Part shown: piece after piece, positions 38,394 to 55,800 of the stretch
Layout of the letters: each line of letters begins with the position of its first letter
Position numbering within the stretch: the first letter of the stretch is position 1
Source: Atrina japonica
Taxonomy: Eukaryota; Mollusca; Bivalvia; Pterioida; Pinnidae
Assembly: GCA_030159075.1 (NCBI GenBank)
Contig: BROG01000073.1
Coordinates: forward strand, 1,428,501-1,492,500
Direction: 5' to 3'
Length of the DNA: 64,000 bases
Made by a program: the position numbers and the translations under genes
The notes under the pieces: model-generated
What the model saw: only the letters and a program-made list of their open reading frames with translations
Databases searched by the model: none
Told to the model about the DNA's origin: nothing

Positions 38394-38399
38394 AACACC
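38394..38399 (+). repeat. Target-site duplication AACACC, left
   Basis: Perfect 6-bp direct repeat with 52012-52017, directly abutting the left TIR. Confidence 0.9.
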
Positions 38400-39139
38400 A
38401 GTAGTTATAGGCAGCTCCATGGCGGGCCATTTGAATTTTGCCGCTAGGGGGCGCCACCAGTGGCGCTGTTGATGACGTCATCAGAATGCTGGCTTCTGAT
38501 TGGTCAATTCAAATGGCCCGCCATGGAGCCGCCTGTGACGTCACAACCGGAAGTGCGTCATACCGGAAGTGAGGTCATACCGGAAGTGCGTCATACCGGA
38601 AGTGAGGTCATGTTGTCATGGCAATAAGGAGAAAGAGCCAATCGTTGAGCTTGGAGGCGTGTCTATGACCGGAAGTAGAAGGTTGTGGGGGGCGGCCATC
38701 TTGGCTAAGGAGCCAATGAGAGCCTTCGTTACAAGAGGTTGGGGTCACGAGAGTTCACGAGAGGTCACGTGAGTTCCCGAGAAGTCAACGGGAAGAGAGA
38801 GAAGTTGGGTTTTTCCAGTTTTGAGCTGAGAGTGAATCTATTTTTAGAACCGAAACTTTGGGTTTTTCCAGTTTTGAGCTGAGAGTAGATCTATTTTTAG
38901 AACCGAAACTTTGGGTTTTTCCAGGTTTGTGAAACTAGCAGTTGGTGGCGCCACCGTCGGTGAAACTAGTAGTTGGTGGCGCCACCGTCGTTGAGAGTTG
39001 TGTATCATGCGCATGCGCGAGAAGCGGTAGGGCCGAGCCCGTATCTGTGAGTTAGTCGTCAAGAGTCCTGTTTCAAGTGCGCAAGCGCGAGAAGTGGTAG
39101 GCCGAGCTCGACTCAAGCTTGTACTAAGACTTGTAGAGT
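38400..39139 (+). repeat. Left terminal inverted repeat (740 bp)
   Basis: It matches the inverse of 51384-52011 almost base for base over its outer 600 bp. It differs by an extra copy of a roughly 53-bp block (around 38869-38920, with GAGCTGAGAGTAGATCTATT) and an extra 60-70 bp near 39030-39100. It holds, from the tip inward: a foldback tip (38410-38533), four ETS-like CCGGAAGT boxes (38550-38610), a YY1-like GCGGCCATCTTGG (38692-38704), CTATTTTTAG twice (38838, 38891), a doubled 36-bp block with GGTGGCGCCACC (38931-38998), and an NRF1-like TGCGCATGCGC (39008-39018). Confidence 0.95.
38410..38533. other. TIR tip foldback: 28-bp outer stem with three inner hairpins
   Basis: Arms 38410-38437 and 38506-38533 pair over 28 bp with one mismatch (GGCAGCTCC against GGCGGCTCC). 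The loop holds the perfect hairpin GCGCCACCAGTGGCGC (38451-38466), the perfect palindrome TGATGACGTCATCA (38470-38483) and TCAGAA...TTCTGA (38481-38499). The right TIR has the mirror copy. Confidence 0.85.
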
Positions 39140-39655
39140 AAAATAAAAAATTCAAACACTCACCCTATGCTGGTAGTGGTTTTTTCTGACGATGTTGACT
39201 CTTCGAGCTTCGGATTGCAAATGAGCTCTCAGAGGTCTAACTGAACCTCTCTCTAGTCATGTGACTTTTTTTTTATTTCTATTTTTAGTGCATGAAAAAA
39301 ATAATCTTGTGTCCTATCTAATAAAAAAATTCAAACACTCACCCTATGCCAATAGTAGTAGTTTTTTCTTATGATGTTGACTCTTCGAGCTCCGGATTGC
39401 AAATGAGCTCTCAGAGGTCTAACTGAACTATACTCTAGTCATGTGACTTTTTTTTTGTTTCTATTTTTAGTGCATAGAAAATAATCTTGTCCTATCCAAT
39501 AAAAAAAATGAAACACTTACCCTATGCTAAAAGTAGTGTTTTTTCTTATATGATGTTAAACACCTCGAGCTTCAGATCTCAAATGACTTTTCACAAAGCT
39601 GAACTGAACCTCTCTCTAGTCACATGACTTACTATATTTAGACTTTTATCTCATG
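39140..39655 (-). repeat. Three tandem modules of about 180 bp inside the left TIR
   Basis: Read on the minus strand (outward), each module has CTAAAAATAG-like text (39279-39288 and 39461-39470, the third degraded), GTCACATGAC, GGTTCAGTTAGA, GAGAGCTCATTTG, CGAAGCTCGAAGAGTCAAC and a donor-like GGGTGAGTG/GGGTAAGTG. A single outward copy lies at about 50540-50640 on the plus strand. Possibly a promoter plus short leader exon. No coding is supported. Confidence 0.6.
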
Positions 39656-39801
39656 AAGTGAATACAACAAAAAAAACACAAATAAAAATTTAATGTTGAA
39701 TATACGCGACTAAATAGTGTGTAGTCGTCGCTGTTTTTTAAACTCACCGCTACAGAATAATACATACTTTCAGATAAGGTTTCTTTTCGAATAAGTTGGG
39801 T

Positions 39802-39817
39802 GGCCCTTAAAAGGGCC
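39802..39817 (-). terminator. Histone-type 3' stem-loop SL1
   Basis: The minus strand reads GGCCCTTTTAAGGGCC, then ACCCAACTTATTC and the purine block GAAAAGAAACC. It fits the metazoan histone stem-loop consensus GGYYYUHUHHARRRCC at all 16 positions, with the usual ACCCA cleavage context and a U7-target-like block. It serves gene E. Confidence 0.85.
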
Positions 39818-39854
39818 GTTGATTTCTCCGAAAAGCTGAATAAAAGAGAGACTC

Positions 39855-40160
39855 CTAATATCTGTCGAGTAGACGTCGCCAATGCCGAACTTCTCTTTCT
39901 TTTTCTATCATCAGTCGATTTATCTCGGCCTTATGTTGTCGAAGATTGGTTAATGCTTCCTGAGCTAGTACGTATTGTACAGGTACTGGAAGTGAAGGGT
40001 CAGGTCTAGGTGGTTCCTCCTGATGTGTAGTAGGTGTCACAGGGGTCCCATCAGAATTGATCGGGCTGCGTGGTCTTACTACAATACGTGTCCTCTGTGT
40101 GAGAATGATTCGCAAGTTTCTCTCTTCAGGTTGCATTTCCATATCAGTTGAGTTATCCAT
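39855..40160 (-). CDS. Short element gene E, 101 aa, unknown, histone-type 3' end
   Basis: An intact 101-residue frame starting MDNSTDMEMQPEERNL, with a Pro-rich middle (PRPDPSLPVPVQ) and a charged, probably helical end (INRLMIEKEREVRHWRR). I do not recognise the family. A TATA box (TATATAAG, plus-strand 40197-40204) with a CRE TGACGTCA (40212-40219) lies upstream, and TTCATTATC directly precedes the ATG. The stop is 37 nt before the histone-like stem-loop at 39802-39817. Being intact with full signals on both sides makes it a credible gene. The role is unknown. Confidence 0.65.
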   Translation of the reverse strand: MDNSTDMEMQPEERNLRIILTQRTRIVVRPRSPINSDGTPVTPTTHQEEPPRPDPSLPVPVQYVLAQEALTNLRQHKAEINRLMIEKEREVRHWRRLLDRY

Positions 40161-40234
40161 GATAATGAACTAACACCGAGACTTAGACAGTACTAGCTTA
40201 TATAGAGTGAATGACGTCACGTATTGATTTTTTT

Positions 40235-40480
40235 CCCACGTCTAGACATCTGGCCACCTGTTGTTGACAGTTTTGACACTTGGCATCTGAACACCTGTTT
40301 TTGACACTTGGCATCTGAACACCTGTTTTTGACATTTTTGACACTTGGCATCTGGCCACCTGTTTTTGACACTTGGCATCTGAACACCTGTTGTTGACAA
40401 TTTTGCCACTTGACATCTGGCCACCTGTTGTTGTAGTCTGTCTAGACATCTACGTCTAGAGATTTGACCACCTGTTTTAT
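40235..40480 (-). repeat. Tandem repeat upstream of gene E and polymerase B, 28-37-bp units
   Basis: Units of ACACTTGGCATCTGAACACC plus TGTTTTTG, with GGCCACCTGTTGTTGACA variants. They hold repeated CACCTG E-boxes, so the tract could act as an enhancer between two divergent genes. Open frames across it are repeat translations. Confidence 0.75.
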
Positions 40481-40656
40481 AAGACAGAAACTGTCACTCC
40501 TTTTTAATATTTTCTTATTCTATATGAAAAATAAAACGAAATACAATACATTCTAGTTTTATGAATCTATAAAACATACAAGACTAGAATATTAAAGACT
40601 ATATAAATGTGATGATACTTCGTTTGAGTATCTATACAGTTTCTTTTCTTTTTTAT

Positions 40657-40690
40657 TATAAATACATGTCTACAGTAACCGTACTTCATT
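40657..40690 (+). promoter_or_regulatory. Core promoter of the polymerase gene
   Basis: TATAAATA at 40657-40664 and an initiator-like TTCATT at 40685-40690, 31 nt apart. The first ATG of the polymerase frame follows at 40722. Confidence 0.55.
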
Positions 40691-40721
40691 TTAGATTTGA
40701 CCACGGAAGCATACGCACGGA

Positions 40722-43700
40722 ATGGCTAATTTACCAAACTTTGATTTATTGTTAAATGAAAGACAAGAACAGGCGAGAAGTCAAAGGCAAGCTCAGCAGA
40801 GAGATCAACGGGGTGATGGATTTAATGCCAATAGGCAACTCACCGATTATAGTGATTACTATAAAGTAGACACTCTGAGTGAGCGTAAATCACGTAAGTT
40901 TAAAACGGCCTCGAATGTGTACCAAGTCAAGTTTAAGCATTTTTCTAAAGATGCCATACACTTAGTATCAGAAGTAATAGATCATATGTTGACTTCTATT
41001 AAGAACAAACTACAGTGTGAAGATCGGGATAAGATGCGAGTCAATATACATCATCCATCGTTAAAAAAGTGAAGTGTGGGTAGAATTTACAGATGCTAAA
41101 AGACCTGAATGCTGATCTATTCATGGAAAAAATTGAGAAAGTGCAACAGAGTAATGAAAATTTTAGAATAGAAGATGGGTCTACCACCCTGTCAGTAATC
41201 CATGTCATACAACCTGTAGGTAGCGGGGGTGGAAAACGAAAATATCATCTCAGTGTTGATAAAAAATCCATGCTGAACAAGAAAAGAAGTTTGATACAGA
41301 TCAAGAATACAGACAAGACCTGTTTAGCTCGTGCTATTGTAATTGGTCGTTTTCATTGTCAGAAACCTGGACTTGGAGATGGAGACAAGTACAAAAACTG
41401 GCAACGCTATTGGAAAACTTTGATTTATGGTGATGCAAAAAGGACTACTCTTCAACGACGAGAAGCTCATGCCTTAATGCAACAAACTGGATGTGATCCC
41501 CAGCAAGAGAGTGGACCTGAAGAATGGCAACGTTTTCAGGCCGCATTGTTACCCCACTACCGTTTGAAAATCTACGAGTTGAATACCAACACAAAACGAT
41601 TGACATTAAATGTACTGTATAGTGGTGTGGGATCCGGGGCCCCCATTCACGTTTTGTACGATGATCACCATTACGATTGTATCGTATCTATGTCTGGACT
41701 CTTGGAATGTAATTACTATTGCGACCGTTGTGATGTGGGTTATGATCATATAGAAGATCACCGATGTCCCCAATGCTGCTTTCGTTGTTTTGCACCGTCG
41801 CCCTGTGTTCCCGACAACACGATAAAACCTATAGAATGTACACATTGTCAGGGGACATTCACATCGACTCGGTGTTACGAGAATCATTTGAAGCCTTATA
41901 GTAGTAATACAACCACTACTCCATGTCAGCTTATGACTCGATGTCCCACTTGTCAATTATGGATAAGTAAGAAACAATTCACACAACACTGTTGTCAAGA
42001 AAAGAAGAAAAAATGTCGCCATTGTAAACAGATCGTGGATCTAGATCATCGCTGTTTTATACAACGGATCCCTTCTCAGGATGAATCATCTTCACCCCCT
42101 TATTACATTTTCTATGATTTTGAGTGTACCCAGGATACCGGAGAACACAAACCTAATCTATGTATTGCTCATCGTGTATGTCCCCAGTGTCCATCCGATG
42201 ATTGGTGTGAGCAATGTAAAACCATGGAAGATCATTGTATTACATTCCGAGGTCCCACGACACTCACTGATTTTTTGACTTGGTTATTTCAAACGACCGT
42301 GTATGATGACATACATCAAAGGGAAAAACTTTTACATGATGGAGCTATAGCTATTGCTCATAACTTTAAAGGGTACGATGGCCAGTTTATTTTACATCAT
42401 CTGGTACATCATGCCTGTGAAAAACCTGATGTGATCATGAACGGTTCTAAGATTATGTCTATGACGGCTGGAAACATCAGGTTTAAAGACTCATGTAAAT
42501 TTCTTGGCATTTCCTTTAGCTTCGTTACCTAAAGCTTTTGGATTGACTGAACTGAAGAAAGGCTACTTTCCGCATTTGTTCAATACAGAAGCTAATGCTG
42601 ATTACATAGGAGTATATCCCCCAGCTATGTATTACAACCCAGAAGGTATGAAACCTGATGTCCGTCGTGATTTTGAAGCATGGTATCAAGACCAAATTCA
42701 AAAGGGTGAGATTTTTTCATTTGCAATGCGAATTAGAAGAATACTGTGAATCGGACGTGACTATTTTGCGACAAGCTTGCATGCATTTCCAAAGCATGTG
42801 TTTGAAACTAACCGATGTGGACCCCTTTGCTGAATCGATTACGTTTGCCAGTACGGGGAATATAGCCTATCGTCGCAATCATATGCAAAAAGATACGATT
42901 GGTATCATACCTCCGCGGGGATATCCTTCACCACGACAGTATTCCACCCTAGCATTACGCTGGTTGAGTTGGAAAGAACATGAAACTGGTCAAACGATTA
43001 GACATGCTCGTCAGGGAGGGGAAGTCCAAGTAGGATCTTATCGCGTGGATGGTTATCATGAAGACTCTCGCACCATTTACGAGTTTCATGGCTGTTTTTG
43101 GCACGGATGCCCGTTGTGTTTTCCTAACTTAAAGCAAGAGCAACACCCGTTTCATCCTTCTTTGACGTATGAAGAAGTGTATCAAAAGACCTTAGAGAGA
43201 GATCAGTATTTGCGTCAACACTATCAAGTAGAAACGCTGTGGGAACATGACTATCGTCAAAGGTACAAGACGGATCCACAGTTTCAACATTTCATTGATA
43301 AAACGTATGAGGAGTTTCCCGATCCGTTAGTTCCTAAAGATGCTTTATTTGGAGGTCGAACGAATGCTACTCGTTTGCTCTGTGAAGAAGGAGACATTCG
43401 TTACGTGGATGTATGTTCTTTGTACCCATTTGTCTTGAAACATGGGACTTTTCCCATTGGACACCCAGACGTGATTACACATGATTTCAAAAGTCTAGAT
43501 CAATATTTTGGACTGGTACAATGTCGAGTTATTCCCCCTCGTCAGCTGTTTCATCCCGTGTGTTACCTTATCGGTTTGCAGGGAGGAAAGCTACTTTTTC
43601 CTTTATGTCGTACTTGTGCTCAACAAGGAATCGAACAGGAGTTGGGTATGAGTTATCGATGCTCTCATACGAATCAAGAACGACGTTTGTTAGGTACATG

Positions 43701-44649
43701 GACGACGTGTGAATTGAATAAAGCTATAGAAAAAGGTTATGTGATCGATCGTATCTTTGAAGTATGGCATTTCCCTGATCAGTCCAATACTTTATTTCGT
43801 AGCTATATTGATCAGTTTCTTCAGATTAAGCAACAAGCTAGTGGTTTTCCTGCTTCCTGTCAAACAGTAAAAGATCGTCGTCAATACCTCAAAGAGATTG
43901 AAACGAGAGAACAACTGATCATACGAGAAGAAGATGTAGAGAAGAATCCTATCTTACGGACCATTGCTAAACTGTTTCTGAACTGTTTGTGGGGTAAATT
44001 TGCTCAACGAACTAATTTACCTCAGACACAGTATGTGGAGAGTTACGAAGCATTTACAACAGTTACTTCAAGATGATACTCGTGATATATTACATTTAGA
44101 ACTGATTCCCAATGACGAAGGCCATGATGAGCTTGACATGATGCTGGTGAATTCAAAACCGAAGGATGACTTTGATGAACCCAATGGTTTTAGCAATGTA
44201 GTGCTAGCAGCCTTTACGACGTCTTTAGCACGGTTACATCTCTATGCCACCCTAGAAGGTTTGGGAGAACGTGTATTTATATTTTGATACAGACAGTATC
44301 ATTTATCAACACGATCCACAGCAGTGGAATCCTACTATCATAAACAGTTTAGGAGGATGGACAGACGAATTAGATGGGGATTCTATCTTATCCTTTGTCT
44401 CGGGAGGTCCTAAAAATTATGCGTACAAGACTCGTCAGGACAAAACGGTGTGTAGAGTCAAAGGAATCACTTTTGATAGTCGTACCACTTCTACAGTCAA
44501 CGTAAATACATTGAAACAGTTGTTACGTGGTCAACAAAAGAACGAAACAACATAAAGTCAAAACACAGGCGATGACTAAAGAAGTGCGTGTCGTGTATGA
44601 TAAGAGACATCGCATTGAAAACTTTTGTACTTTACCTTATGGTTATTGA
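40722..44649 (+). pseudogene. polB: Protein-primed family B DNA polymerase, frameshifted
   Basis: This is the replicative polymerase typical of Polintons. The frame is split into pieces 40722-41072, 41093-42532, 42504-42749, 42658-44076, 44000-44287, 44271-44555 and a last piece ending at TGA 44647-44649. Visible landmarks in order: a Cys/His-rich N-terminal segment (CDRCDVGYDH, about 41719), Exo I YDFECT (about 42115), Exo II HNFKGYDGQF (about 42360), Exo III YCESD (about 42746), Pol A DVCSLYP (about 43410), Pol B LFLNCLWGKF (about 43972), Pol C FDTDS (about 44277) and the C-terminal LPYGY. All catalytic motifs are kept. At least five frame breaks (near 41070, 42495, 42710, 44035 and 44265) mean that this copy cannot make the whole enzyme as written. 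Two breaks lie at A or T runs. Confidence 0.93.
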
Positions 44650-44654
44650 ATAAA
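44649..44654 (+). terminator. Poly(A) signal AATAAA overlapping the polymerase stop
   Basis: TGAATAAAG: the stop codon and AATAAA share a base. A second AATAAA-like site (AATAAAATG) follows about 18 nt later. The polymerase gene thus seems to use ordinary polyadenylation, unlike the short genes. Confidence 0.7.
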
Positions 44655-44707
44655 GTTTTTTGAGTAATAAAATGTAAGAAACTTGACTTTGGTGTTGGTG
44701 TTGATGA

Positions 44708-44743
44708 TATAAAACAGAAGACAGTGAAGGGTAGGGGTTCATT
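44708..44743 (+). promoter_or_regulatory. Core promoter of the virion-like gene
   Basis: TATAAAA at 44708-44714 and TTCATT at 44738-44743, 33 nt apart. The ATG follows at 44773. Confidence 0.55.
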
Positions 44744-44772
44744 GATACAGTGTGATCTCAAGTACACGCATC

Positions 44773-45802
44773 ATGGCGACTCTCGATTCGAAAGATCATG
44801 GTAGTTTTTACATGACTTTACCTAGCGATGCTAGTTTAAAAGTCTTTCCCGATAATACCTTAACAGAATTCAAAACTCATTTACCTCAAGCTTTAAGTAT
44901 GATGGATAGTGAGTGGGAAATAGCGTTGAGTGAATTGATCTTTCCCAACTTAATAGAATCGATAACATCAGATGAGAATTACGTAGATGTCCTGGTTCCC
45001 CTTCACGTTCCTTTGGAATCCGTCGTGACACCTAAAAATCCCCAGGACCCCTCTACGTATCCTAAGAAAAAGGAAATGAATATCGCCAACATGAACGTTT
45101 TACTGTAGAATTGATAAAGAAGCACGTCTCGTTAGATGATCCCCAATTTGATCATGTCATCTCTAAAACTGATACGAAATCGGGGATCGCTTTTGTAGGA
45201 AGTATTTGGAGACTTAAATTTCGTTCGGGGTTTTATGCGTCTCCTGTTGCTTTAATAGAAGAGATGAAAGTTGGGTTTTCTAGAGCCTTTCAATATGTCA
45301 TTGATGGGATAGAAGATCTCTCTCATAAAATACTATTAAATTCAGATATGACTCAGCTTTAGATCGATTCATGATTGAGTTTAAAGGCCGATCCATCTAT
45401 TCCGTTCCCTTTTTAATACGTTTTCCAAGTCTACTAGGTTATAAGCTTGGCTTTGAAGCCGTTGACATGAATGAGGAGATGACGAAATGGGTCGATGTCA
45501 CGCACATGCCAAAGTATCCACCCGATTTAAATATTGGTATGAGTGGTATCTATGTCTACAGTAACATTGCCGAAAGTCAAATTGTAGGTTCACAATCGTT
45601 ACCGTTATTACGTGTGGTCCCTTTTCAAACGGGTCAATCGCTCAATCATCAACATTGGGAACCTTTTCATTACAATTATGTGGGTTTAAATAAAAAGTAT
45701 TTTGATACCATTGAAATACAATTGAGAGATGACATGGGACGTAAAATTCATTTTCTAGGAGGAAAAGTGATTGCCAAACTTCATTTTCGTCGTGTCATTT
45801 AA
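44773..45802 (+). pseudogene. Virion-like protein of metazoan Polintons (F54H12.2-like), frameshifted
   Basis: The start MATLDSKDHGSFYMTLPSDA, followed by DNTLTEFKTHLPQ and EWEIALSELIFP, matches my memory of a protein family found beside polymerase B in many invertebrate genomes and often annotated as F54H12.2-like. A role in the particle, such as a minor capsid or penton-like protein, is inference. The frame breaks near 45108 and 45362, giving pieces 44773-45108, 45111-45362 and 45371-45802, about 340 residues in all. A hairpin CTTCATTTT...AAAATGAAG (45779-45809) spans the stop. Confidence is high that it is a real element gene and moderate on the family. Confidence 0.65.
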
Positions 45803-45878
45803 AATGAAGTGCAACACAGGACTTGGGTCAGTTGATGACCGAGAGTCATCGTGTTCACATCTTGTATTATTTATCAAT

Positions 45879-46459
45879 ATGAATCCGACGAAAAGAGAAA
45901 ATGGCATGACTAAAGCCGTAAGAAAAGAAGATATGAAAAGACGAAAGGGGTGGAAAGGGGAGAAACAGAGAGAAGAGAAACAGAGAGAAGAAGAAGAAGA
46001 ACAGAGAGAAAGAATAGGGGAAAACGATTGAAGGACAGGAAAAGATAGAAGGAGAGAAAAAGTCAGAAGGACAGAGAGATGAAGGAAAAGAACAGAGAAT
46101 GAAAAGAAAGAGGGGACGTCCACGCAAAGTATCTGTAGAGAGAACAAAAAGAACAAAGAGAAGAAGAAGGACAGAGGGAAGGAGTGAAAAGGGGGCGACC
46201 ACGAAAAGTAGAACAGGAAGAAATACCTCATGATATTTTAATGTTTCTACGACAATGGTTAAGCGATTGTCGTCAGTCTCCCATGTACGGTGACACTTTT
46301 CATTTACAATTAAATGATAATAATGGCAATCGAGCAGGTATGATGTATCATGTGCATAAAGAACAACGACAAGTAGCATGGGATCCTTTTGGTCATCATG
46401 TAGACGTACCGATGATACAATTTGTGTTTCAGGACAAAAAACGTAGAAAAATATGATTT
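45879..46459 (+). pseudogene. Charged AT-hook protein, frame disrupted
   Basis: The first piece (MNPTKRENGMTKAVRK..., to 46031) is almost all Lys, Arg and Glu. Two AT-hook motifs KRGRPRKV follow in different frames, at 46099-46131 and 46184-46210, about 85 bp apart. The second piece runs on to a folded-looking C-terminus (DILMFLRQWLSDCRQ, then AWDPFGHHVDVPMIQFVF) ending at 46456-46459. AT-hooks bind the minor groove of AT-rich DNA, so a DNA-condensing or packaging role is plausible. The C-terminal part is not recognised. The purine-only tract between the pieces is prone to slippage, which may explain the breaks. Confidence 0.5.
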
Positions 46460-46471
46460 TTTAGTTCTGAT

Positions 46472-46535
46472 CTAAAAATAGATTTTATGGACCTTATAAA
46501 AAGGAAGTGAGAATGCACATCAGGGACCATTCACT
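46472..46535 (+). promoter_or_regulatory. Promoter of the BIR gene: CTAAAAATAG, TATA, CATTCA
   Basis: CTAAAAATAG (46472-46481, identical to a MEF2 consensus site), TATAAAAA (46495-46502) and ACCATTCACT (46526-46535). TATA to the initiator A is 34 nt. This placement makes the ATG at 46546 a better start than the earlier ATG at 46513, which would lie before the transcript start. Confidence 0.6.
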
Positions 46536-46545
46536 CTCAGACACG

Positions 46546-47091
46546 ATGGAAAGAACATCAAGTATGGAAACTTTATTTTCATCGACGATGGATGCTAGTC
46601 AGATTGTCACGGATAGTGCTCCCACGAACCGAGACATGATGGATAGTGTACCACGAATTCATCGAGTAGAAGTAGATAGTGTACCACGAGCTCATCGGGT
46701 TGAAGTGGATAGCGTACCGAGAGTCAATCTGATAGAAGTGACAAGGACTCCACCTTCCGAAAGGAGACAAGGTGTGACCACTTTTAAACTAAGACCTGCT
46801 ACCGACAGAGGGTTATCGTTTCATCAGGAATTAAGAATACCTTTAGCCTTGCCTAATTTTTGTACGTATGAATCCAGGTACCTGACGTTTAAAGATCATT
46901 GGCCCAAATATCTACCGGGACCTAAACAGACAGAATTAGCCAGAGCAGGATTTGTGTATTTAGGGAACAGTGACCACGTTCAGTGTTTTTCTTGTGGCAT
47001 CTGTTTAAAAGATTGGGAATGGAGCGATAATGCTTTTACAGAACATCGACGTTGGTCTAAAGATTGTACTTTCAGTCAATTGCTGATATAA
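46546..47091 (+). CDS. BIR-domain (inhibitor-of-apoptosis) protein with N-terminal 12-residue repeats
   Basis: An intact frame. I take ATG 46546 (MERTSSMETL) as the start because of the promoter position; the frame is open further upstream. The N-terminal half carries three tandem DSVPRxHRVEV-type units. The C-terminal half is one BIR domain: it holds LTFKDHWP, then LARAGFVYLG and CFSCGICLKDWEW, then H and C with the exact spacing CX2CX16HX6C of the BIR zinc site. BIR proteins bind caspases or IAP antagonists, and DNA viruses use them to delay host cell death; whether this one does so is inference. There is no RING domain. Of the larger element genes it is the only one with an undamaged frame, which suggests it was kept the longest or broke the least. 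Confidence 0.88.
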   Translation: MERTSSMETLFSSTMDASQIVTDSAPTNRDMMDSVPRIHRVEVDSVPRAHRVEVDSVPRVNLIEVTRTPPSERRQGVTTFKLRPATDRGLSFHQELRIPLALPNFCTYESRYLTFKDHWPKYLPGPKQTELARAGFVYLGNSDHVQCFSCGICLKDWEWSDNAFTEHRRWSKDCTFSQLLI

Positions 47092-47158
47092 ACAAAAACA
47101 AAAAACCCTGTGTGGAGCCTCCCTTCTGGAAACATCCAAGTGACTGGCGGCAACGAGT

Positions 47159-47229
47159 CTAAAAATAGATTAAGAAGAAAAAGAACGGCTATAAAGTAAA
47201 GTGAAGTGCAGTGACCAAACATCATTTGA
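47159..47229 (+). promoter_or_regulatory. Promoter of the zinc-knuckle gene: CTAAAAATAG, TATA, TCATTT
   Basis: CTAAAAATAG at 47159-47168 (in the same TCTAAAAATAGATT context as before the BIR gene), TATAAAG at 47190-47196 and ATCATTTG at 47221-47228, with 34 nt from TATA to the initiator A. Confidence 0.55.
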
Positions 47230-47242
47230 ATCAGTCATCAAC

Positions 47243-47862
47243 ATGAGTTATCCAGGCTTGTCACAGACGTACCCAAATTATTCACCTAATACTACACCTT
47301 ACATAGAAGGGGCCGATGAGTTTGATGAAGTTCTCAAAACGTTAGACCAGTTGCAAGAAAAACAAGAAAATGATGCGACCCAGGGAATGTTACGTGATGC
47401 CTTGCTATCCACATTACAGAAAATGAGGGAAGAACTCACGACTATTACAACTACTCTGAAAGAATTGAAGGATAAAGTACAGCCAGGAGTCAGAACATCG
47501 TATATGGGGTACGAATATAAGCCTACGCCCCAGACTCATCCTTGTTTCATTTGTGGTGAAATTGGACATTGGTCTCCTAGATGTCCTAAGAATAACGAGT
47601 CGGCAACAACAACAGCAACAACAGCAACAAAAGTAGAGCCTGAGAACAAAGTAGAAAATCGATCTCGTCAATCGGACCAGTGTGTTATAAATGTCATCAG
47701 TCAGGTCATTGGGCTTATGAATGTCCCGAACAGACTTCAACAGGGGCCAAACGTAAACTCAACTTGATGCTCAAGAAGGGAGGCAAAGCCACCAAAAAAA
47801 GGGAAAGTGGAAACCGAACAGCAGTGAATGTTTTAGTACTGTTAAAATGTAAATACGTTTAG
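47243..47862 (+). pseudogene. Two-knuckle CCHC protein with coiled coil, one frameshift
   Basis: The start ATG 47243 (MSYPGLSQTYPNYSPNT) fits the promoter just upstream. Residues of about 30-90 form a likely coiled coil (DEFDEVLKTLDQLQEKQ...). Knuckle 1 is CFICGEIGHWSPRC (CX2CX4HX4C, about 47545-47586). Knuckle 2, CYKCHQSGHWAYEC, lies at 47683-47724 but in another frame. A single frame break near 47660-47680 separates them, and the first frame ends at 47767. A basic tail with KKGGKATKKRES ends at 47862. CCHC knuckles bind single-stranded nucleic acid, as in retroviral Gag; a packaging or replication-cofactor role here is inference. Confidence 0.7.
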
Positions 47863-48606
47863 TGTCACAGCGTCAAGGAATCCGAACCGACCGATCTAGG
47901 ACAAAAGCTAACGTTCTTTTGCTCCGTGCTGTATGGGCAAGATCAACTGTAGTAGTGAGACAAAGTGACTCAAAGTTTTTGTGATGAACGTTTTAACATG
48001 AAGTTAATGTTTTCAAAGTTAATGTTCTCATAGTTCATTCTTATGTATTGTACATAGTCACAGAAAGTGAATCAGTGTTCTCAAAGTTAATGTTCTCATA
48101 GTTAATGTTCTCATAGTTCATGCTTATGTATTGTACATAGTCACAGAAAGTGAATCAGTATTCTCATAATTAATGTTCTGATAGTTAATGTTCTCATAGT
48201 TCATGATTATGTATTGTACATAGTCACAGAGGGACGGCCCTAATCCTCTGTCGACTATCTAAAAAGTTTTTAGCGGGGCATTAAACTTATTAAAATTGAA
48301 TCTGGTGTTTGTGTATTTATGACTAAAAGGTGTATACGTTTAGAGTACACTTAGAGTTTAAACCCTACTGGGTATAAGGTGTACACTAAGAGTACACTTA
48401 GAGTTTTGCTCTAGTATCTACAAGGTAGACATAAAGGAGTAATGTAAAAACAAAAACTATGAGCAGAAGGAGATCAAGAGTAAAAGTGTAACACTCAGAG
48501 TAGAAGAGATACACAGAGAAAGAGATACAGAATAAGGGTATACAAAAGGATCTATGTTTTATTACTGCTCTAATCAGTCGTAGGTTTCTTTTCGTAAAAG
48601 TTAGGT
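47863..48606. other. Element spacer with tandem repeats, no supported gene
   Basis: It holds the repeat at 47990-48235 and short duplicated AGAGTACACTTAGAGTTT segments around 48335-48405. An ATTAAA at about 48279-48292 may serve the zinc-knuckle gene. Confidence 0.5.
47990..48235 (+). repeat. Tandem repeat with GTTCTCATAGTT units
   Basis: Three unequal copies of about 70-95 bp made of GTTCTCATAGTTAATGTTCT and ATGTATTGTACATAGTCACA blocks. Confidence 0.8.
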
Positions 48607-48622
48607 GGCCCTGAAAAGGGCC
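48607..48622 (-). terminator. Histone-type 3' stem-loop SL2
   Basis: The minus strand reads GGCCCTTTTCAGGGCC, then ACCTAACTTTTAC and GAAAAGAAACC. It is a full match to the histone consensus, with the common UUUC loop. It lies 17 nt after the stop of gene A. Confidence 0.88.
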
Positions 48623-48639
48623 GTTGGTGTTTTAAGGCT

Positions 48640-48834
48640 TTATAGGCCATGACATAAAAAGCATTTTGTCCGTTTTCTCTGCCGTCTTTCTCTTTTTCTT
48701 TTTTCAAGCTTCACGAGCTCAATCCATTCGTCGATATTTGATAACCAGTCCACCTTTCTTCCCACTGTATCGGCACATATCAGCCATTCTTCTTTGTCTT
48801 GTACTTCGCCCCACATGGTTACACAGTCAGCCAT
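48640..48834 (-). CDS. Short element gene A, about 64 aa, unknown, histone-type 3' end
   Basis: I place the start at the ATG at 48834 (MADCVTMWGEVQDKEEW), since the longer frame to 48945 would nearly touch the divergent gene B. The protein is acidic and Trp-rich at first and strongly basic near the end (KRKRERRQRKRTK), closing CFLCHGL with a CxxC. No family is recognised. The stop is 17 nt from SL2. The first 37 codons of the longer frame (Arg-rich, CRVCLRV) cannot be excluded. Confidence 0.55.
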   Translation of the reverse strand: MADCVTMWGEVQDKEEWLICADTVGRKVDWLSNIDEWIELVKLEKRKRERRQRKRTKCFLCHGL

Positions 48835-48953
48835 GATCAAACAATGACTATAGACTCTGAGACATACTCGGCAGGGTGCGACGTCACACGTCGCGTGAGC
48901 GTTTCTTCTTCTCCTTCTTGTTGAACATCGCTTAGTGAAAAACAAAAACCAAA
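48835..48953. promoter_or_regulatory. Divergent promoter between short genes A and B
   Basis: About 120 bp between head-to-head starts. It contains GACGTCACACGTCGCGTG (CRE-like core at 48880-48887), locally GC- and CpG-rich. No clear TATA box is seen. Confidence 0.45.
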
Positions 48954-49314
48954 ATGGAGAGCATCTATACAGAAGCTATTTACAAAATTATTCTGTTACA
49001 ACAGAAGACCAAGTGGCGTACCATGAAGTGTAATCGTTACTATCAGAGTCTACTGACGAAACTGAATCTGAGATGGAGGCAACTGAAACATCAGCAAACC
49101 TCGCAGAAAGTCAGAGATGATTTCGATAGGCAGTACCGACAGGGGTTTAGAGTATTTGTCAGCTCAGTATGTTTCTACTAGAAAACAGATTAGAGCTAGT
49201 TTTCGTCAACAACAGATACCGATCAGCATGACGATCAAGAGAAAGATAGATGATCTACTGGAAGCAGAACGCCGTTTACCTCTGAAAAAGAGAAGATGTT
49301 ACTGTCAATATTAG
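48954..49314 (+). pseudogene. Short element gene B, unknown, one frameshift, histone-type 3' end
   Basis: ATG 48954 opens MESIYTEAIYKIILLQQK and a basic, helical protein of about 60 residues. The frame then shifts near 49140-49150 (a GGGG run), and the continuation in the second frame ends at 49314 with RRLPLKKRRCYCQY. The stop is 13 nt before SL3. About 120 residues if unbroken, small and basic like a histone, but I see no histone-fold motif and do not assign one. Confidence 0.5.
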
Positions 49315-49327
49315 TAACCTAACTAAC

Positions 49328-49343
49328 GGCCCTTTTCAGGGCC
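49328..49343 (+). terminator. Histone-type 3' stem-loop SL3
   Basis: GGCCCTTTTCAGGGCC, then ACCCAACTCATTAGAAAAGT. This is the best textbook form: full consensus match, an ACCCA cleavage context and a purine-rich AGAAAAG block 14 nt on. Confidence 0.9.
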
Positions 49344-49539
49344 ACCCAACTCATTAGAAAAGTAATCTAAACTGTATTGAGATATGCTACATCTACTACT
49401 ACTATAAAACATAGACCTATTACTCATTTTATTGTGTCATAAACCCTATCACTCATATTCTTGTCTCATAAACCCTATAACTCATTTTATTATATACACT
49501 TCACATTCAGTTTAAGGTTTCTTCTCGTAAGATATAAGT

Positions 49540-49555
49540 GGTCCTGAAAAGGACC
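49540..49555 (-). terminator. Histone-type 3' stem-loop SL4 with a compensating pair
   Basis: The minus strand reads GGTCCTTTTCAGGACC, then ACTTATATCTTACGAGAAGA and AACC. Relative to SL2, SL3 and SL5 the third stem pair is T-A in place of C-G, so the stem is kept. Confidence 0.85.
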
Positions 49556-49650
49556 GTTGTTTTTGGCATATCTGCCATGATTCATGTACAGAATCTCTTT
49601 TTAAACGGCAAACACTTCTCATCCATCTGCTTACGTTTTCTCTCTCTTCT

Positions 49651-49854
49651 CTACCAAACCCGTAAAACAGAATTGAGAAGTACAATTCGTCTCAGGCGAA
49701 CATCTTCTTTTCCCTGATGAAAGTTCAGATCAATCTTTCGTAACTTATCTTTAGTATCACGAATAATCTGCCTAGTATCATATACAGGCTCGATTAGAAC
49801 AGGTTCGATTTCTTGTTCCATAGTGTACTCCATAGTATACGCCATGTTTGACAT
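49651..49854 (-). pseudogene. Short element gene C, unknown, probably truncated, histone-type 3' end
   Basis: The frame opens MSNMAYTMEYTMEQEIEPVL and is 67 residues long, with KDKLRKIDLNFHQ and a basic end. Its stop is about 95 nt before SL4, further than in the other four genes, and the gap contains open sequence in another frame (with RWMRSVCRLKRDSV), so a frameshift probably cut the C-terminus. No family is recognised. Confidence 0.45.
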
Positions 49855-50071
49855 TTTTTATTTTTATCACTCTTAGACTGATTTCTCCTAGGCGTCTATC
49901 ACTCTTGACGTTTTCATTGGTGGAATCACGTTGCCAACGATACATAGACCAATCATCAAAGAGGTCAAAGTTGACGAGACGGAGTACGTCGCGTGCACTA
50001 TACTGCTCATATAAAAAGCCGTGCGCGTCTCATTTCACTGCGCTTCATTCCAGAAGACACAACAAAGAAAG
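49855..50071. promoter_or_regulatory. Divergent promoter between short genes C and D
   Basis: CCAAT boxes face both ways (minus strand at 49916-49920, plus strand at 49949-49953). TATAAAAAG at 50010-50018 and the histone-cap-like CTTCATTCC at 50043-50051 serve gene D. The layout resembles a histone-pair promoter. Confidence 0.6.
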
Positions 50072-50317
50072 ATGGTATTAGTGATTAGAGTTCAACCAAC
50101 TAACACAGCCAATATGTTTATTGATACCGAGAAGTTTTGGGCGAGTAAGCCCCAATACATTTTGGACAGCCTGAAGACAGCCAGCGAAGAATGGGAATAC
50201 TTCGAAAGACAGAAGGCCGGAATGGAAAAGTTTTGCCAAGCTGCTGCGGCCCGTGCAGCAGCTACAGAAAGAAAAAAGATGGTGTGCTGCCGGGACTGCT
50301 GTTGCTGCTGCCTATAA
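50072..50317 (+). CDS. Short element gene D, 81 aa, Cys-rich tail, histone-type 3' end
   Basis: An intact frame from MVLVIRVQPTNTANMF to the unusual tail CCRDCCCCCL. The middle is a likely amphipathic helix (ILDSLKTASEEWEYFERQK) followed by an Ala-rich stretch. There is no transmembrane segment. The Cys cluster could be lipid-modified or bind metal, but neither is shown. The promoter (TATA 50010, CCAAT 49949) and SL5 (24 nt after the stop) frame it completely. No family is recognised. Confidence 0.68.
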   Translation: MVLVIRVQPTNTANMFIDTEKFWASKPQYILDSLKTASEEWEYFERQKAGMEKFCQAAAARAAATERKKMVCCRDCCCCCL

Positions 50318-50341
50318 GGGTTTTAACAACCCAAAACAAAC

Positions 50342-50357
50342 GGCCCTTTTCAGGGCC
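50342..50357 (+). terminator. Histone-type 3' stem-loop SL5
   Basis: GGCCCTTTTCAGGGCC, then ACCTAACTTACAC and GAAAAGAAACC (50371-50381). The whole downstream block is shared with SL1 and SL2. Confidence 0.9.
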
Positions 50358-50381
50358 ACCTAACTTACACGAAAAGAAACC

Positions 50382-51383
50382 TTAACTGAAAACTATGCAG
50401 TTTTTGTATGTGTTATACTATAGTGGTAAGTCTAACCTATAATAAGTAAGTTAATTCTTTTACTTGATTGATCAAATTTTATCAGACAGAAATTCAAAAC
50501 GAGGCAATTCTAAAAATAGTAACATTAAAAACTTGAAAATAAGTTCAGTTAGACTACTGAGAGCTCATTTGGCAGCCGAAGCTCGAAGAGTCAACATCGT
50601 CAGAAAAACTCTCTCTGGGTAAGTGTTTAATTTTTTTATTTTATATACAGTAGTACAAGAAATAATATAAAATAATACAGATACTATTTTCACTATCTGA
50701 ACTTTGATACTTGTTGAAACGACGTAAGTGAACAACTTCATACTTTACACTTTACTACTTGTATCACTTTGTCACTTTGAGACTTCATAACTTAGAACGT
50801 TGCACACGTTGCACACGTTGCAAACTTTGAGAACGGTACACACTTGATCACTTTGACAAACTTTGAGAACGGTACACACTTGATCACTTTTGACAAACTT
50901 TGAGTACGTTACACACTTTCATGTTCTATGGTTCTCACTCCTGCCGTGAGATTAGTCAGTCCCATGATTCCATACCCAAGATGGCTACCCTTCCTATACT
51001 TTCTATTTCACTACCCACCCACCCTTCCTCTCTGGTTAAGTGTATACAACCCATATAGAGTCATCGCCCCTTTTGTTCCACCCCTATAGTCTATACAGAG
51101 TAATCCCCCTTTGTTTCATGTATACAGTCTATACAGAGTGATCTCCCTTTGCCCCATCTCTATAGTCTATACAGAGTAATCTCCCTTTGTTTCACCTATA
51201 CAGGCTATACAGAGTGATGTATAACCTATAGAGTCTATACAGAGTAATCTCCCTTTGTTCCACATATAGAGTCTATACAGAGTGATCTCCCTTTAGTCCT
51301 ACTCATACAAGCTATACAGAGTAATCTCCCTTTGTTTCACCTGTAAAGTCTATACAGAGTGATCTCCCTTTGTACATACTCGT
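50382..51383. other. Right element spacer: leader-like module and tandem repeats, no supported gene
   Basis: It holds CTAAAAATAG at 50510-50519, one outward leader-like module (about 50540-50640), repeats of CACACTTGATCACTTTGACA and AACTTTGAGAACGG (about 50795-50930), and about nine units of TCTATACAGAGTAATCTCCC plus TTTG (about 51030-51375). Confidence 0.6.
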
Positions 51384-52011
51384 CACTCTACAAGCCTTAG
51401 TACAAGTCTTAGTTCAAGCTTGAATCGAGCTCGGCCTATCGCTTCTCGCGCATGCGCATGATACACAACTCTCAACGACGGTGGCGCCACCAACTACTAG
51501 TTTCACCGACGGTGGCGCCACCAACTGCTAGTTTCACAAACCTGGAAAAACCCAAAGTTTCGGTTCTAAAAATAGATTCACTCTCAGCTCAAAACTGGAA
51601 AAACCCAACTTCTCTCTCTTCCCGTTGACTTCTCGTGAACTCACGTGACCTCTCGTGAACTCTCGTGACCCCAACCTCTTGTAACGAAGGCTCTCATTGG
51701 CTCCTTAGCCAAGATGGCCGCCCCACAACCTTCCACTTCCGGTCATAGACACGCCTCCAAGCTCAACGATTGGGTCTTTCTCCTTATTGCCATGACAACA
51801 TGACCTCACTTCCGGTGTGACGTACTTCCGGTATGACCTCACTTCCGGTATGACGCACTTCCGGTTGTGACGTCACAGGCGGCTCCATGGCGGGCCATTT
51901 GAATTGACCAATCAGAAGCCAGCATTCTGATGACGTCATCAACAGCGCCACTGGTGGCGCCCCCTAGCGGCAAAATTCAAATGGCCCGCCATGGAGCTGC
52001 CTATAACTACT
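51384..52011 (-). repeat. Right terminal inverted repeat (628 bp)
   Basis: The inverse of the left TIR, without the left copy's extra 53-bp block and inner insertion. The same ETS, CRE, YY1, CTAAAAATAG (51566-51575) and NRF1 motifs are present. A handful of point differences (for example GTACGTCACACCGG for GTGCGTCATACCGG) suggest limited divergence since insertion. Confidence 0.95.
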
Positions 52012-52017
52012 AACACC
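52012..52017 (+). repeat. Target-site duplication AACACC, right
   Basis: Perfect 6-bp direct repeat with 38394-38399, directly abutting the right TIR. Confidence 0.9.
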
Positions 52018-52785: not shown

Positions 52786-52892
52786 ATGGCTGTGCTCAGT
52801 AAATTGACAGCCAAAAATACAGCAGTGACAACAGCAGGTGTTGCTGCCGCTTATATATTATATAGGAATGTTACAACTAGGAAAAGAAAAAG
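52786..52892 (+). CDS. Candidate first coding exon of an ABCD3/PMP70-like peroxisomal transporter
   Basis: ATG 52786 opens MAVLSKLTAKNTAVTTAGVA and then AAYILYRN with a basic RKRKR, followed by donor GTATTT at 52893. Start, length and layout (SK-LTA-N, a short hydrophobic helix, then basic residues) resemble the N-terminus of ABCD3, the 70-kDa peroxisomal membrane ABC half-transporter. An ETS-like CCGGAAGTGG lies about 10-20 bp upstream, as in many housekeeping promoters. No later exon with the ABC domain was found in the remaining 11 kb, which may be the first intron. The family call is tentative. Confidence 0.4.
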
Positions 52893-55800
52893 GTATTTTT
52901 GTACAATTTTTCTGTATATTATCCAGATCAAATACTTTAATTCTCATCGTCCACCCGAGTCTAAAGGTCATTCTTGTCATCATGATCATATTATATGGGA
53001 CGCACTCAATCATGGCTATGCTTCTAAAGCTGTGACAAGAATTCTAATTTAAGGCAAATTGCAACATAACTGAGCCATGTTATCCTGTTTACCGTACTGT
53101 TATACCCTTCACCACAAAAGTGAAACACAGACCTGAAACACGTGTACAGTATCTTGGCAACTCGTATTTAAAATGTACACATTATTTAACTTCATCAGTG
53201 ACATCACATAACATTCTCATAAGACACATCGATAAAAACACAGTTTAGAATTTTTAGTAATTTATTTGATTGATTTCAGTAAATAATCAGACTCACCTGG
53301 GCTCAAAAAGCTATGAGCCAAAAAATTTGCCAACCAAGGTATTTTTTAGCCAATAAAATTTTTTATTAGTCAGTTCAATAAATATTTATACCAAATATGT
53401 TTTTAATTTTATGTACATGTACAATGTAAGTATAAGTTACCCAAGAGTTTTTGAAATTCACTGGTCTTACCAGAAAAACCAGTAAAGTCCGGTGAAATCT
53501 ATCTGATAACTGGTCCAAACGACCAGTAATTTTCCATTTTATTTCAATTGTGTATATATACAGACCAGTGAAAAATTTTCTTTGACCAGTGAAATTTCTT
53601 TATTCACTGGTCCGGTTGACCAGTATTTTTTTTTTATTTCAAAATGTATGTTACCCCATAGGAAAGTGTTGGTTATATTATGATACACCATGGATGAGTG
53701 CAAAATTATGCATAGCATGCCCTCTAATTTTATCATTTGGGGGTTTTTGTACCCCGACATGTCATTTTGGGGGTACAGAACAAATTATGAGGGTACACCA
53801 AATATCCCCCAAATAGAGGAGAGTATATTTTTACAAAAATGTATTTTCATTGTTATGCTTAAAATAATTTTTTACTACCTATATTAGTATATACATGTAA
53901 CTATCAAAGAAAGTGCCATATTTTTATGCTTATAAATCATTATGGTGGATAGGTCAAATGGTAGATTTGTGGCAAAAATTCTAATTTAAGTAGTTGACAG
54001 TTCAATGTTGGCAGAGATGAAAAAAGGGATTGGTCATCACAAAAACAAATCGTTTATGTGGATCTAACATGTAGAATAACTGGTGCTGAAACAGTAATAT
54101 TTTGTAGTAAATTATTAGATTTAAACATGAATTTTATTTCAAGAGCTTTTAAGTTGAATCTGTCTTGTATTTTATCTTATTTTGTATCTCTCAACATTGA
54201 TTGTGGATACGAATTATGAAACAGGTAACGTCTTACATTGGTAATAATATGATAATTACCAAATCATCATTATAATTTCTCTTACTTTATGCCACTAATG
54301 TAACTGTAACACTGTACAGTGATCTCAGTACTTTTGTATCCTTACTTAACCTAAATTATGTCAAACAATTAAGCAACCAAAGATGAGTGTCTGATCACAT
54401 AGGATCATATTTTTGTGTATGAATAATGTAATGGGGCTGAAAATTCCTTAAGCCAGAGGTCCGGGACCTACATATTTTACTTTCTTACTCTGTCGTTTTC
54501 TTGCTGTGTGGGTCCGAGGACTAATAAGTCTGAATCAATGAATGACTATTCTGTCAACATCTTTATTTCTAAACTTTATTTGTTTCCTTTGTAAAGTTAA
54601 ATTGTCATTTTCTCATATGACTTTGGCAGATTTTGGTTTATATAATTCTGTTTGATAATTGTTATTTGTATTGATTGATTATATTAAAATTCTGACTTAA
54701 GTTTATTGTTATTCGCACAAAAAGCACAAAAGTTAACAAAAATTATTTAAAACCTGTATATTTTAAATAAAAAGTTGGAAAATTAATAAAAAAAAATAAC
54801 TAAAATGTTTGTGCCTCCCTATGATCGGCAAAACAATTATAAATGTATATACTCTTCCTTCCCTATAACTTGAAATCCTGGATGTTTTATTTGAAAACCA
54901 AATCTGCATTGTATTAAAATGTATACAATTTTCCCTTCTGTTATTATCAGCCGAAGATTCAAAAAATTCAGTCATCAATGATATCCAATTCTTTACACAT
55001 AATGAACGAACAGAATTTTCATGTGTAAGGTGTCTTGTCACCCCCCCCCACCCACCCCCACCCCCCCAATATTAGAAAAGCAAACTTTTCGACCCTCTTT
55101 GAAAATTCCTTAATCCACTCCAGAATAGTGGCCTAATACAGACCTATAGTTATCCTGCTTCCAATACTGGAAATATGTGCATCATTTCAAACTGATCTTA
55201 CAATGTTAAACTTTAAATTTTTGTTATTTTTATATTCAAATTATTTCTGTTCGTAGATGAACTAACTACATAAATTTTTGCTCAATCTTTAAAATGTATC
55301 AATATTTTCAGGTTTTTCCACATGACATTTGCTCAGTTTATCAAAAAGAGAATTTGATACATCATGTTTATTTACAGTGTCTGCATACACCATGGGAAGC
55401 TAGATACACCATAGCATACCAACATACCTCACACCCCTAATATTTGCACGGGTCAGAATTCTATGGTGTATGTAGAGATGCACTACACACATTATAATGA
55501 GAAAAAGAGGCAGCCTATGGTACAACATGGGGGTGTGACAAGTGGAAAACTAAATAAACATGTACATCAGAGTTTTCCCTAGTGTGTTATTTTAGCGAGT
55601 CCCAGGGACCCACAAGAACAAAATTCCTGAGACCTTCGTGGAATTTTTGAGTCCCCTAGTCAATGAAATTCAAGAAAATACATGAAAACAAAGGCACACT
55701 TTTTCAGTCTCAGGTTGAAAAAATAATTACTTAGTTTTTGTGCATCCTTAGGGACTCACTAATATTCATGTTTTGCGTCCTGAAAAGATTTCATGCATCA

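Follow-up and report, generated by a model that had tools for sequence, protein, structure and literature searches.

A Polinton-type element of Atrina japonica may time five small genes to the host S phase through histone-type mRNA 3' ends

Analysis of a 64-kb window of Atrina japonica DNA (the whole stretch of 64,000 nucleotides) points to a mobile element of Polinton type in which five small genes, A to E, are each followed by a hairpin and a purine block resembling the 3' ends of replication-dependent histone mRNAs. In histone genes, the stem-loop and downstream purine block direct processing by SLBP and the U7 snRNP, the transcripts are non-polyadenylated and limited to S phase, and the stem-loop is, by textbook account, almost exclusive to these mRNAs. 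An SLBP/U7-type 3' end for the five small genes of the element is well supported by sequence, given the Rfam scores, the position of the hairpins after ORFs, the agreement of strands and the HDE-like block, together with two-sided changes in the stem and retention of the module in other copies. We consider it likely that the small genes would use the host SLBP/U7 route to yield S-phase-limited, non-polyadenylated mRNAs, and that the polymerase gene would use poly(A) signals; the S-phase coupling and the missing poly(A) tail are predictions from these features. The wider reading, that a Polinton-type element runs an S-phase programme in which five small genes are limited via host SLBP/U7 and the polymerase is expressed via poly(A), is one that we favor with more reserve.

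The element that carries these genes spans 38400-52011 (13,612 bp, 13.6 kb); its ends are inverted and flanked by a target duplication of 6 bp, a Polinton trait (Table 1). The interval claimed by the earlier note, 39802..50381, lies inside these limits, the element being larger than that interval. Like Polintons/Mavericks, it has ~0.6-kb terminal inverted repeats (TIRs), a 6-bp target-site duplication (TSD), and a B-family DNA polymerase of the protein-primed class (priming is assumed here), but it differs from them in having no recognised integrase, capsid, ATPase, or protease and in carrying extra BIR, AT-hook, and zinc-knuckle genes. Among the scanned ORF pieces, no Pfam match to an RVE integrase was obtained, and no capsid, ATPase, or protease gene was recognised by Pfam or PHROG. 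The scan covered ORFs of at least 80 aa, together with B and C of the window and D in its L012 form (L numbers designate loci), and left out 40198-40449 and the minus-strand ORFs 41606-41887, 45755-46231, and 45867-46379. With no gene recognised for an integrase, a capsid, or an ATPase, we classify the element as Polinton-type but reduced, and the window copy is decayed; the earlier assignment to Polintons is favored by the TIRs, TSD, and polymerase and weakened by the genes that went unrecognised. Nine Polintons without MCP, protease, and ATPase all together are reported in PMC4028283.

The middle piece of the polymerase matched PF03175 (E 9.2e-32), whereas the first piece fell below the Pfam cut-off; a PHROG match to DNA polymerase was also obtained (2e-18), and the piece at 44033-44287, without a Pfam match, was assigned by position. 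The broken frames at 44773-45802 possibly encode a penton-like protein, a label that is our guess. No believable Pfam or PDB match was found for this protein, the single-sequence fold prediction of its second piece was poor (pLDDT 36.6), and a PDB search returned nothing for the polymerase piece or the penton-like protein of copy L034. In that copy, the zinc-knuckle protein has 193 aa and two knuckles. The BIR (IAP-like) protein at 46513-47091 is a possible apoptosis blocker.

Table 1. Features of the element, in order along the window.
Feature	Position	Strand	Evidence or remark
Target-site duplication AACACC, left, 6 bp	38394..38399		
Left terminal inverted repeat, starts AGTAGTTATAGG	38400..39031		arms 98-99% complementary
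HDE-like block A, CGAAAAGAAACC	39778..39789	-	
Histone-type hairpin A	39802..39817	-	consensus, Rfam, fold
Small ORF A, 101 aa	39855..40160	-	identical protein in copy L019
B-family DNA polymerase, frame-broken pieces	41093..44287 (41093-42532, 42658-44076, 44033-44287)	+	Pfam, PHROG
Two AATAAA hexamers downstream of polymerase gene (44649, 44666)	44649..44671	+	
Possibly penton-like protein, broken frames	44773..45802 (44773-45108, 45371-45802)	+	
AT-hook protein zone, approximate limits, broken in window copy	45804..46464	+	219 aa in copy L034
BIR-domain (IAP-like) protein, 192 aa	46513..47091	+	PF00653 E 4e-22
Zinc-knuckle protein (CCHC)	47243..47767	+	Pfam; frame broken ahead of second knuckle
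HDE-like block B, CGAAAAGAAACC	48583..48594	-	
Histone-type hairpin B	48607..48622	-	consensus, Rfam, fold
Small ORF B, 64 aa	48640..48834	-	conserved among copies
Small ORF C zone, two overlapping frames in window	48954..49314 (48954-49181, 49117-49314)	+	
Histone-type hairpin C	49328..49343	+	consensus, Rfam, fold
HDE-like block C, AGAAAAGTAATC	49356..49367	+	
HDE-like block D, CGAGAAGAAACC	49516..49527	-	
Histone-type hairpin D, GGUCCU/AGGACC stem	49540..49555	-	consensus, Rfam, fold
Small ORF D, 67 aa in window (early stop)	49651..49854	-	
Small ORF E, 81 aa, fast evolving	50072..50317	+	
Histone-type hairpin E	50342..50357	+	consensus, Rfam, fold
HDE-like block E, CGAAAAGAAACC	50370..50381	+	
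Right terminal inverted repeat	51435..52011		arms 98-99% complementary
Target-site duplication AACACC, right, 6 bp	52012..52017		

All five hairpins match GGYYYTHTHHARRRCC exactly, at the places and on the strands given by the earlier note, compared to a mean of 0.03 matches (maximum 2) in 100 shuffles of the window. Each folds as a six-pair stem with a four-base loop, and each reaches the gathering score of the histone 3' stem-loop model (RF00032, 34 bits), at 39.9, 39.7, 39.3, 37.9, and 34.4 bits, with D barely passing; no further Rfam family reaches its cut-off in the window. The purine block that had been noticed after each hairpin begins 12 nt past it at every site and is identical at A, B, and E, with variants at C and D. 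With the hairpins as anchor, agreement among the five sites is limited to ~-10 to +45 relative to the first hairpin base, and identity outside these limits is 0.19-0.41 per ten bases. Because identity is so confined, the conserved unit consists of the hairpin, its flank, the spacer, and the purine block, and no longer repeat. The claim that each hairpin follows a short ORF on the same strand holds for 5/5, with the qualification that the window copy has a broken frame in ORF C and a premature stop in ORF D.

Fuller forms of these ORFs occur in other copies. ORF C is unbroken, with 119 aa and an end 13 nt before the hairpin, in L084, L085, L087, and L088, and ORF D has 82-89 aa and ends 26-27 nt before the hairpin in L011, L012, L013, L084, and L087; in L016 it likewise has 89 aa, and the D hairpin is damaged. 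Distances from the stop of unbroken ORFs to the hairpin were 36-37 nt for A, 16-18 nt for B (one at 9), 13 nt for C, 25-27 nt for D, and 16-29 nt for E, typical values in other copies being 13-37 nt, and L015 has an A-like protein whose end lies 24 nt ahead of the hairpin. Several of the small ORFs appear to be under purifying selection in other copies, judging from dN/dS values of 0.16-0.29 for E in five of six pairs (the remaining pair is saturated), 0.19-0.54 for C, and 0-0.31 for B in pairs without L013. Pairs of B that include L013 gave 0.31-5.78, at low dS, and D gave 0.42-1.98, also at low dS (0.42-0.64 without L013); for A, the single available pair is identical and yields no usable dN/dS. 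Pfam and PHROGs, the latter queried with A, B, and E, returned no believable family for the small ORFs; in the wider S-phase reading, the five genes would probably be regulatory.

The consensus hairpin pattern occurs at 2177 places in the 832-Mb genome, as opposed to 451 for a reversed control, and not every one of these matches is a stem-loop. The genome carries many copies of the element. Of 20 stretches drawn from the matches listed for the consensus pattern, 16 matched it by blastn. Three others in that sample (L025, L027, and L028) are other small genes bearing the 3' module. A further 17 hairpin-site stretches included 16 that match the element, the exception being L048. In addition, a pattern with UUUU/UAUU loops was found at 18 places, all within element copies. 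Complete five-hairpin sets on C5 and C12 have the same order and strands as in the window and similar spacing. Since some loci repeat the same place (L008/L017, L009/L016, and L002/L003/L020) or look alike (L084/L091 and L087/L093 are near-alike and may each be a single copy that is duplicated or entered the assembly twice), counts of loci are not counts of independent copies. Several candidates were rejected: L026 and L048 as histone-type sites, the flank and purine block being absent; five of six odd pattern variants, which lack the same parts (L079 alone has the module); and a recurring consensus match, GGCCTTTTACAGGACC, whose stem contains an unpaired C-A. A search of IMG/VR by exact short words, which is weak for distant relatives, returned no relatives of the polymerase or penton-like piece and no instance of the hairpin plus HDE pattern; the strict hairpin pattern occurred at a single place within a phage coding region, attributed to chance.

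The hairpins are retained in other copies. Sixteen element loci contain 33 exact-consensus hairpins, 27 of which pass RF00032, the six misses all being of type D. Among six close copies, hairpin and HDE together are 95-99% identical, a value inflated because these copies were found by their hairpins, while 3' flanks and the C-D gap are 76-84% identical and coding sequences are ~94% (B, C, and D) or 66% (E) identical. A survey of homologous sites located by flank similarity (53 loci and the five window sites, 92 sites in total) gave mean identities to the window, by site, of 96-99% for the hairpin and 90-98% for the HDE, with 79-93% for the upstream and 82-89% for the downstream flank. After removal of the 16 search-hit hairpins of L082-L099, 61 of 76 hairpins were fully intact, in a set that still contains hairpins found via the consensus pattern. 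The earlier note had regarded the loss of hairpins from copies that keep their ORFs as evidence against its reading. Among hairpins of L082-L099 that were not used to find the copy, 21/29 are intact (B 6/9, C 1/3, D 8/11, and E 6/6) and 8/29 are damaged; such losses are mostly single changes in generally decaying copies like that of the window.

Changes within the stem were also considered. Pairs 3 and 4 show C-G/U-A changes on both sides, and cells with two-sided changes number 10, vs 2.8 in shuffles (0/500), with 97.9% of cells paired vs 94.2% when shuffled (0/500). The count of cells with two-sided change and the covariation score exceed all 500 shuffles, a result that relatedness alone can also produce, whereas neither the number of stem pairs with two-sided change (2/6) nor that of further pair types (4) exceeds shuffles (270/500 in each case). 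These values derive from 62 sites, 32 of them distinct, mostly chosen by the Y/R pattern and including four from non-element genes; the damaged C and D sites of L016 were left out. Copy L081 has a GGCTCT/AGAGCC stem behind a broken A-type ORF, adding a U-A form at pair 4.

In the mechanism that we propose, host SLBP and the U7 snRNP would cleave the pre-mRNAs just 3' of the hairpin. The resulting mRNAs would be short, would lack a poly(A) tail, and would probably have no introns; their synthesis and translation would fall mainly within S phase, and they would be degraded when it ends. Ordinary poly(A) signals would serve the polymerase gene and perhaps also those for the BIR and zinc-knuckle proteins; ATTAAA occurs at 48280 and 48289, 3' of the zinc-knuckle gene. 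With apparent histone-type ends on the small genes and poly(A) signals after the polymerase gene, the element would have two expression classes, and the one tied to S phase may ready the cell or the element for DNA synthesis. Genes B and C, like D and E, form a divergent pair with a short shared upstream region. Inspection by eye of these regions and of that upstream of A showed TGACGTC-like sites (A, B/C), CCAAT boxes (D/E), and TATA boxes (A, E). The purine-block sequence considered for predicted pairing with host U7 was GAAAAGAAACC. Scanning the genome with the Rfam U7 model yielded 0 matches, the control being silent too, and a pattern joining a TTTCTTTT block to a U7-type Sm site matched 22 places vs 16 in a reversed control; among the 20 of these 22 contexts that were examined, none had a convincing 3' hairpin. 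Host histone genes were not found at 20 places of two hairpin patterns.

The hairpins might instead have been inherited with captured 3' UTRs, their mRNAs being mostly polyadenylated nearby without strict S-phase coupling. Poly(A) ends are possible for B and D because AATAAA hexamers lie close downstream (76 nt past the B stop; 90 and 148 nt past the D end), and hairpins are damaged in some copies, as dual or poly(A)-only use would allow. However, neither AATAAA nor ATTAAA is present within 150 nt past the stops of A, C, and E in the window copy, the nearest ATTAAA noted being 160 nt past the A stop and 206 nt past the E stop, and the hairpin, its spacing, and the HDE-like block are retained jointly, with two-sided stem changes. 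We regard this explanation as distinctly improbable. Still less credit is given to a role at the level of DNA, with the palindromes serving as origin, packaging, or recombination signals: the stems are indeed palindromic, and certain derivatives (L023/L024, L050/L051) contain two of them, one close to either end, but the hairpin strand is the ORF strand in 5/5, the UUUH loop and the purine block on the 3' side are asymmetric features of the kind that RNA processing requires, and the Rfam score is that of histone hairpins, which makes such a role very improbable.

A rather stronger, if still unlikely, competitor holds that the small ORFs derive from a family of small, replication-linked genes of the host and that the element is a mere carrier. 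Other single-ORF genes of 120-131 aa do carry such a hairpin with a GAAAAG block (L030, L031, and L032), but blastp of A-E against ORFs of the collected loci, these three included, gave no match to L030-L032 at 1e-5, and A-E are found at constant positions in many copies of the element. This account concerns origin and is compatible with SLBP/U7 processing. The three genes (L030:4544-4939(+), L031:3490-3852(+), and L032:4686-5057(-)) have no blastn match to the element and are possibly non-histone host S-phase genes. Over 76 aa, the L031 and L032 proteins share 41% identity; two hairpins stand in tandem at L032, and in L030 and L031 an AATAAA directly follows the hairpin. In the PDB, the L032 protein matched ubiquitin chains, which we take to be spurious, and it had no relatives in IMG/VR by exact short-word search.

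Processing by SLBP and U7 is the reading that we prefer, and the element shares with the histone 3' UTR stem-loop (RF00032) the 16-nt consensus, the AAC 5' and AC 3' flanks, the purine block 12 nt downstream, and a hairpin soon after the stop codon. It differs in that the structure here belongs to five genes of a mobile element, none of them a histone gene, and in that the stem is mostly GGCCCU/AGGGCC and not GGCUCU/AGAGCC. Bivalve histone primers listed in PMC6210712 suggest, by our own reading of those sequences, a GGCCC-type histone stem, AACGGCCCTT, with an AAC flank, as in the element. Virus-encoded histones (bracovirus H4, xenomavirus H3-like), as far as the sources consulted describe them, are likewise a case of mobile or viral DNA borrowing from the host histone system, although the protein is borrowed there and the mRNA 3' end alone here; a term search of the review PMC9145170 returned neither stem-loop nor polyadenyl. 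A literature search at title and abstract level, in which subscription journals are thinly covered, returned no Polinton or other transposon with a histone stem-loop, SLBP, or HDE, in keeping with the earlier statement that no such description was known for Polintons. If our reading is correct, this would be the first known mobile element or DNA virus, within the literature searched, to commandeer the 3'-end pathway of histone mRNAs for genes of another kind; that pathway would be open to capture by selfish DNA, and a DNA element would have a direct way to time its genes to host DNA synthesis. The element also offers small natural non-histone reporters of SLBP/U7 processing.

Some further arrangements were observed in and around the element. 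Just outside its right end, ORF 52786-53052 looks like the beginning of an ABCD-family peroxisomal ABC transporter. Shorter derivatives (L023/L024, L039/L040, and L050/L051) contain an inverted pair of the hairpin module with ~5-8 kb between the hairpins, and in the deletion derivative L038 the zinc-knuckle gene adjoins the 3' end of gene E, with the hairpin kept.
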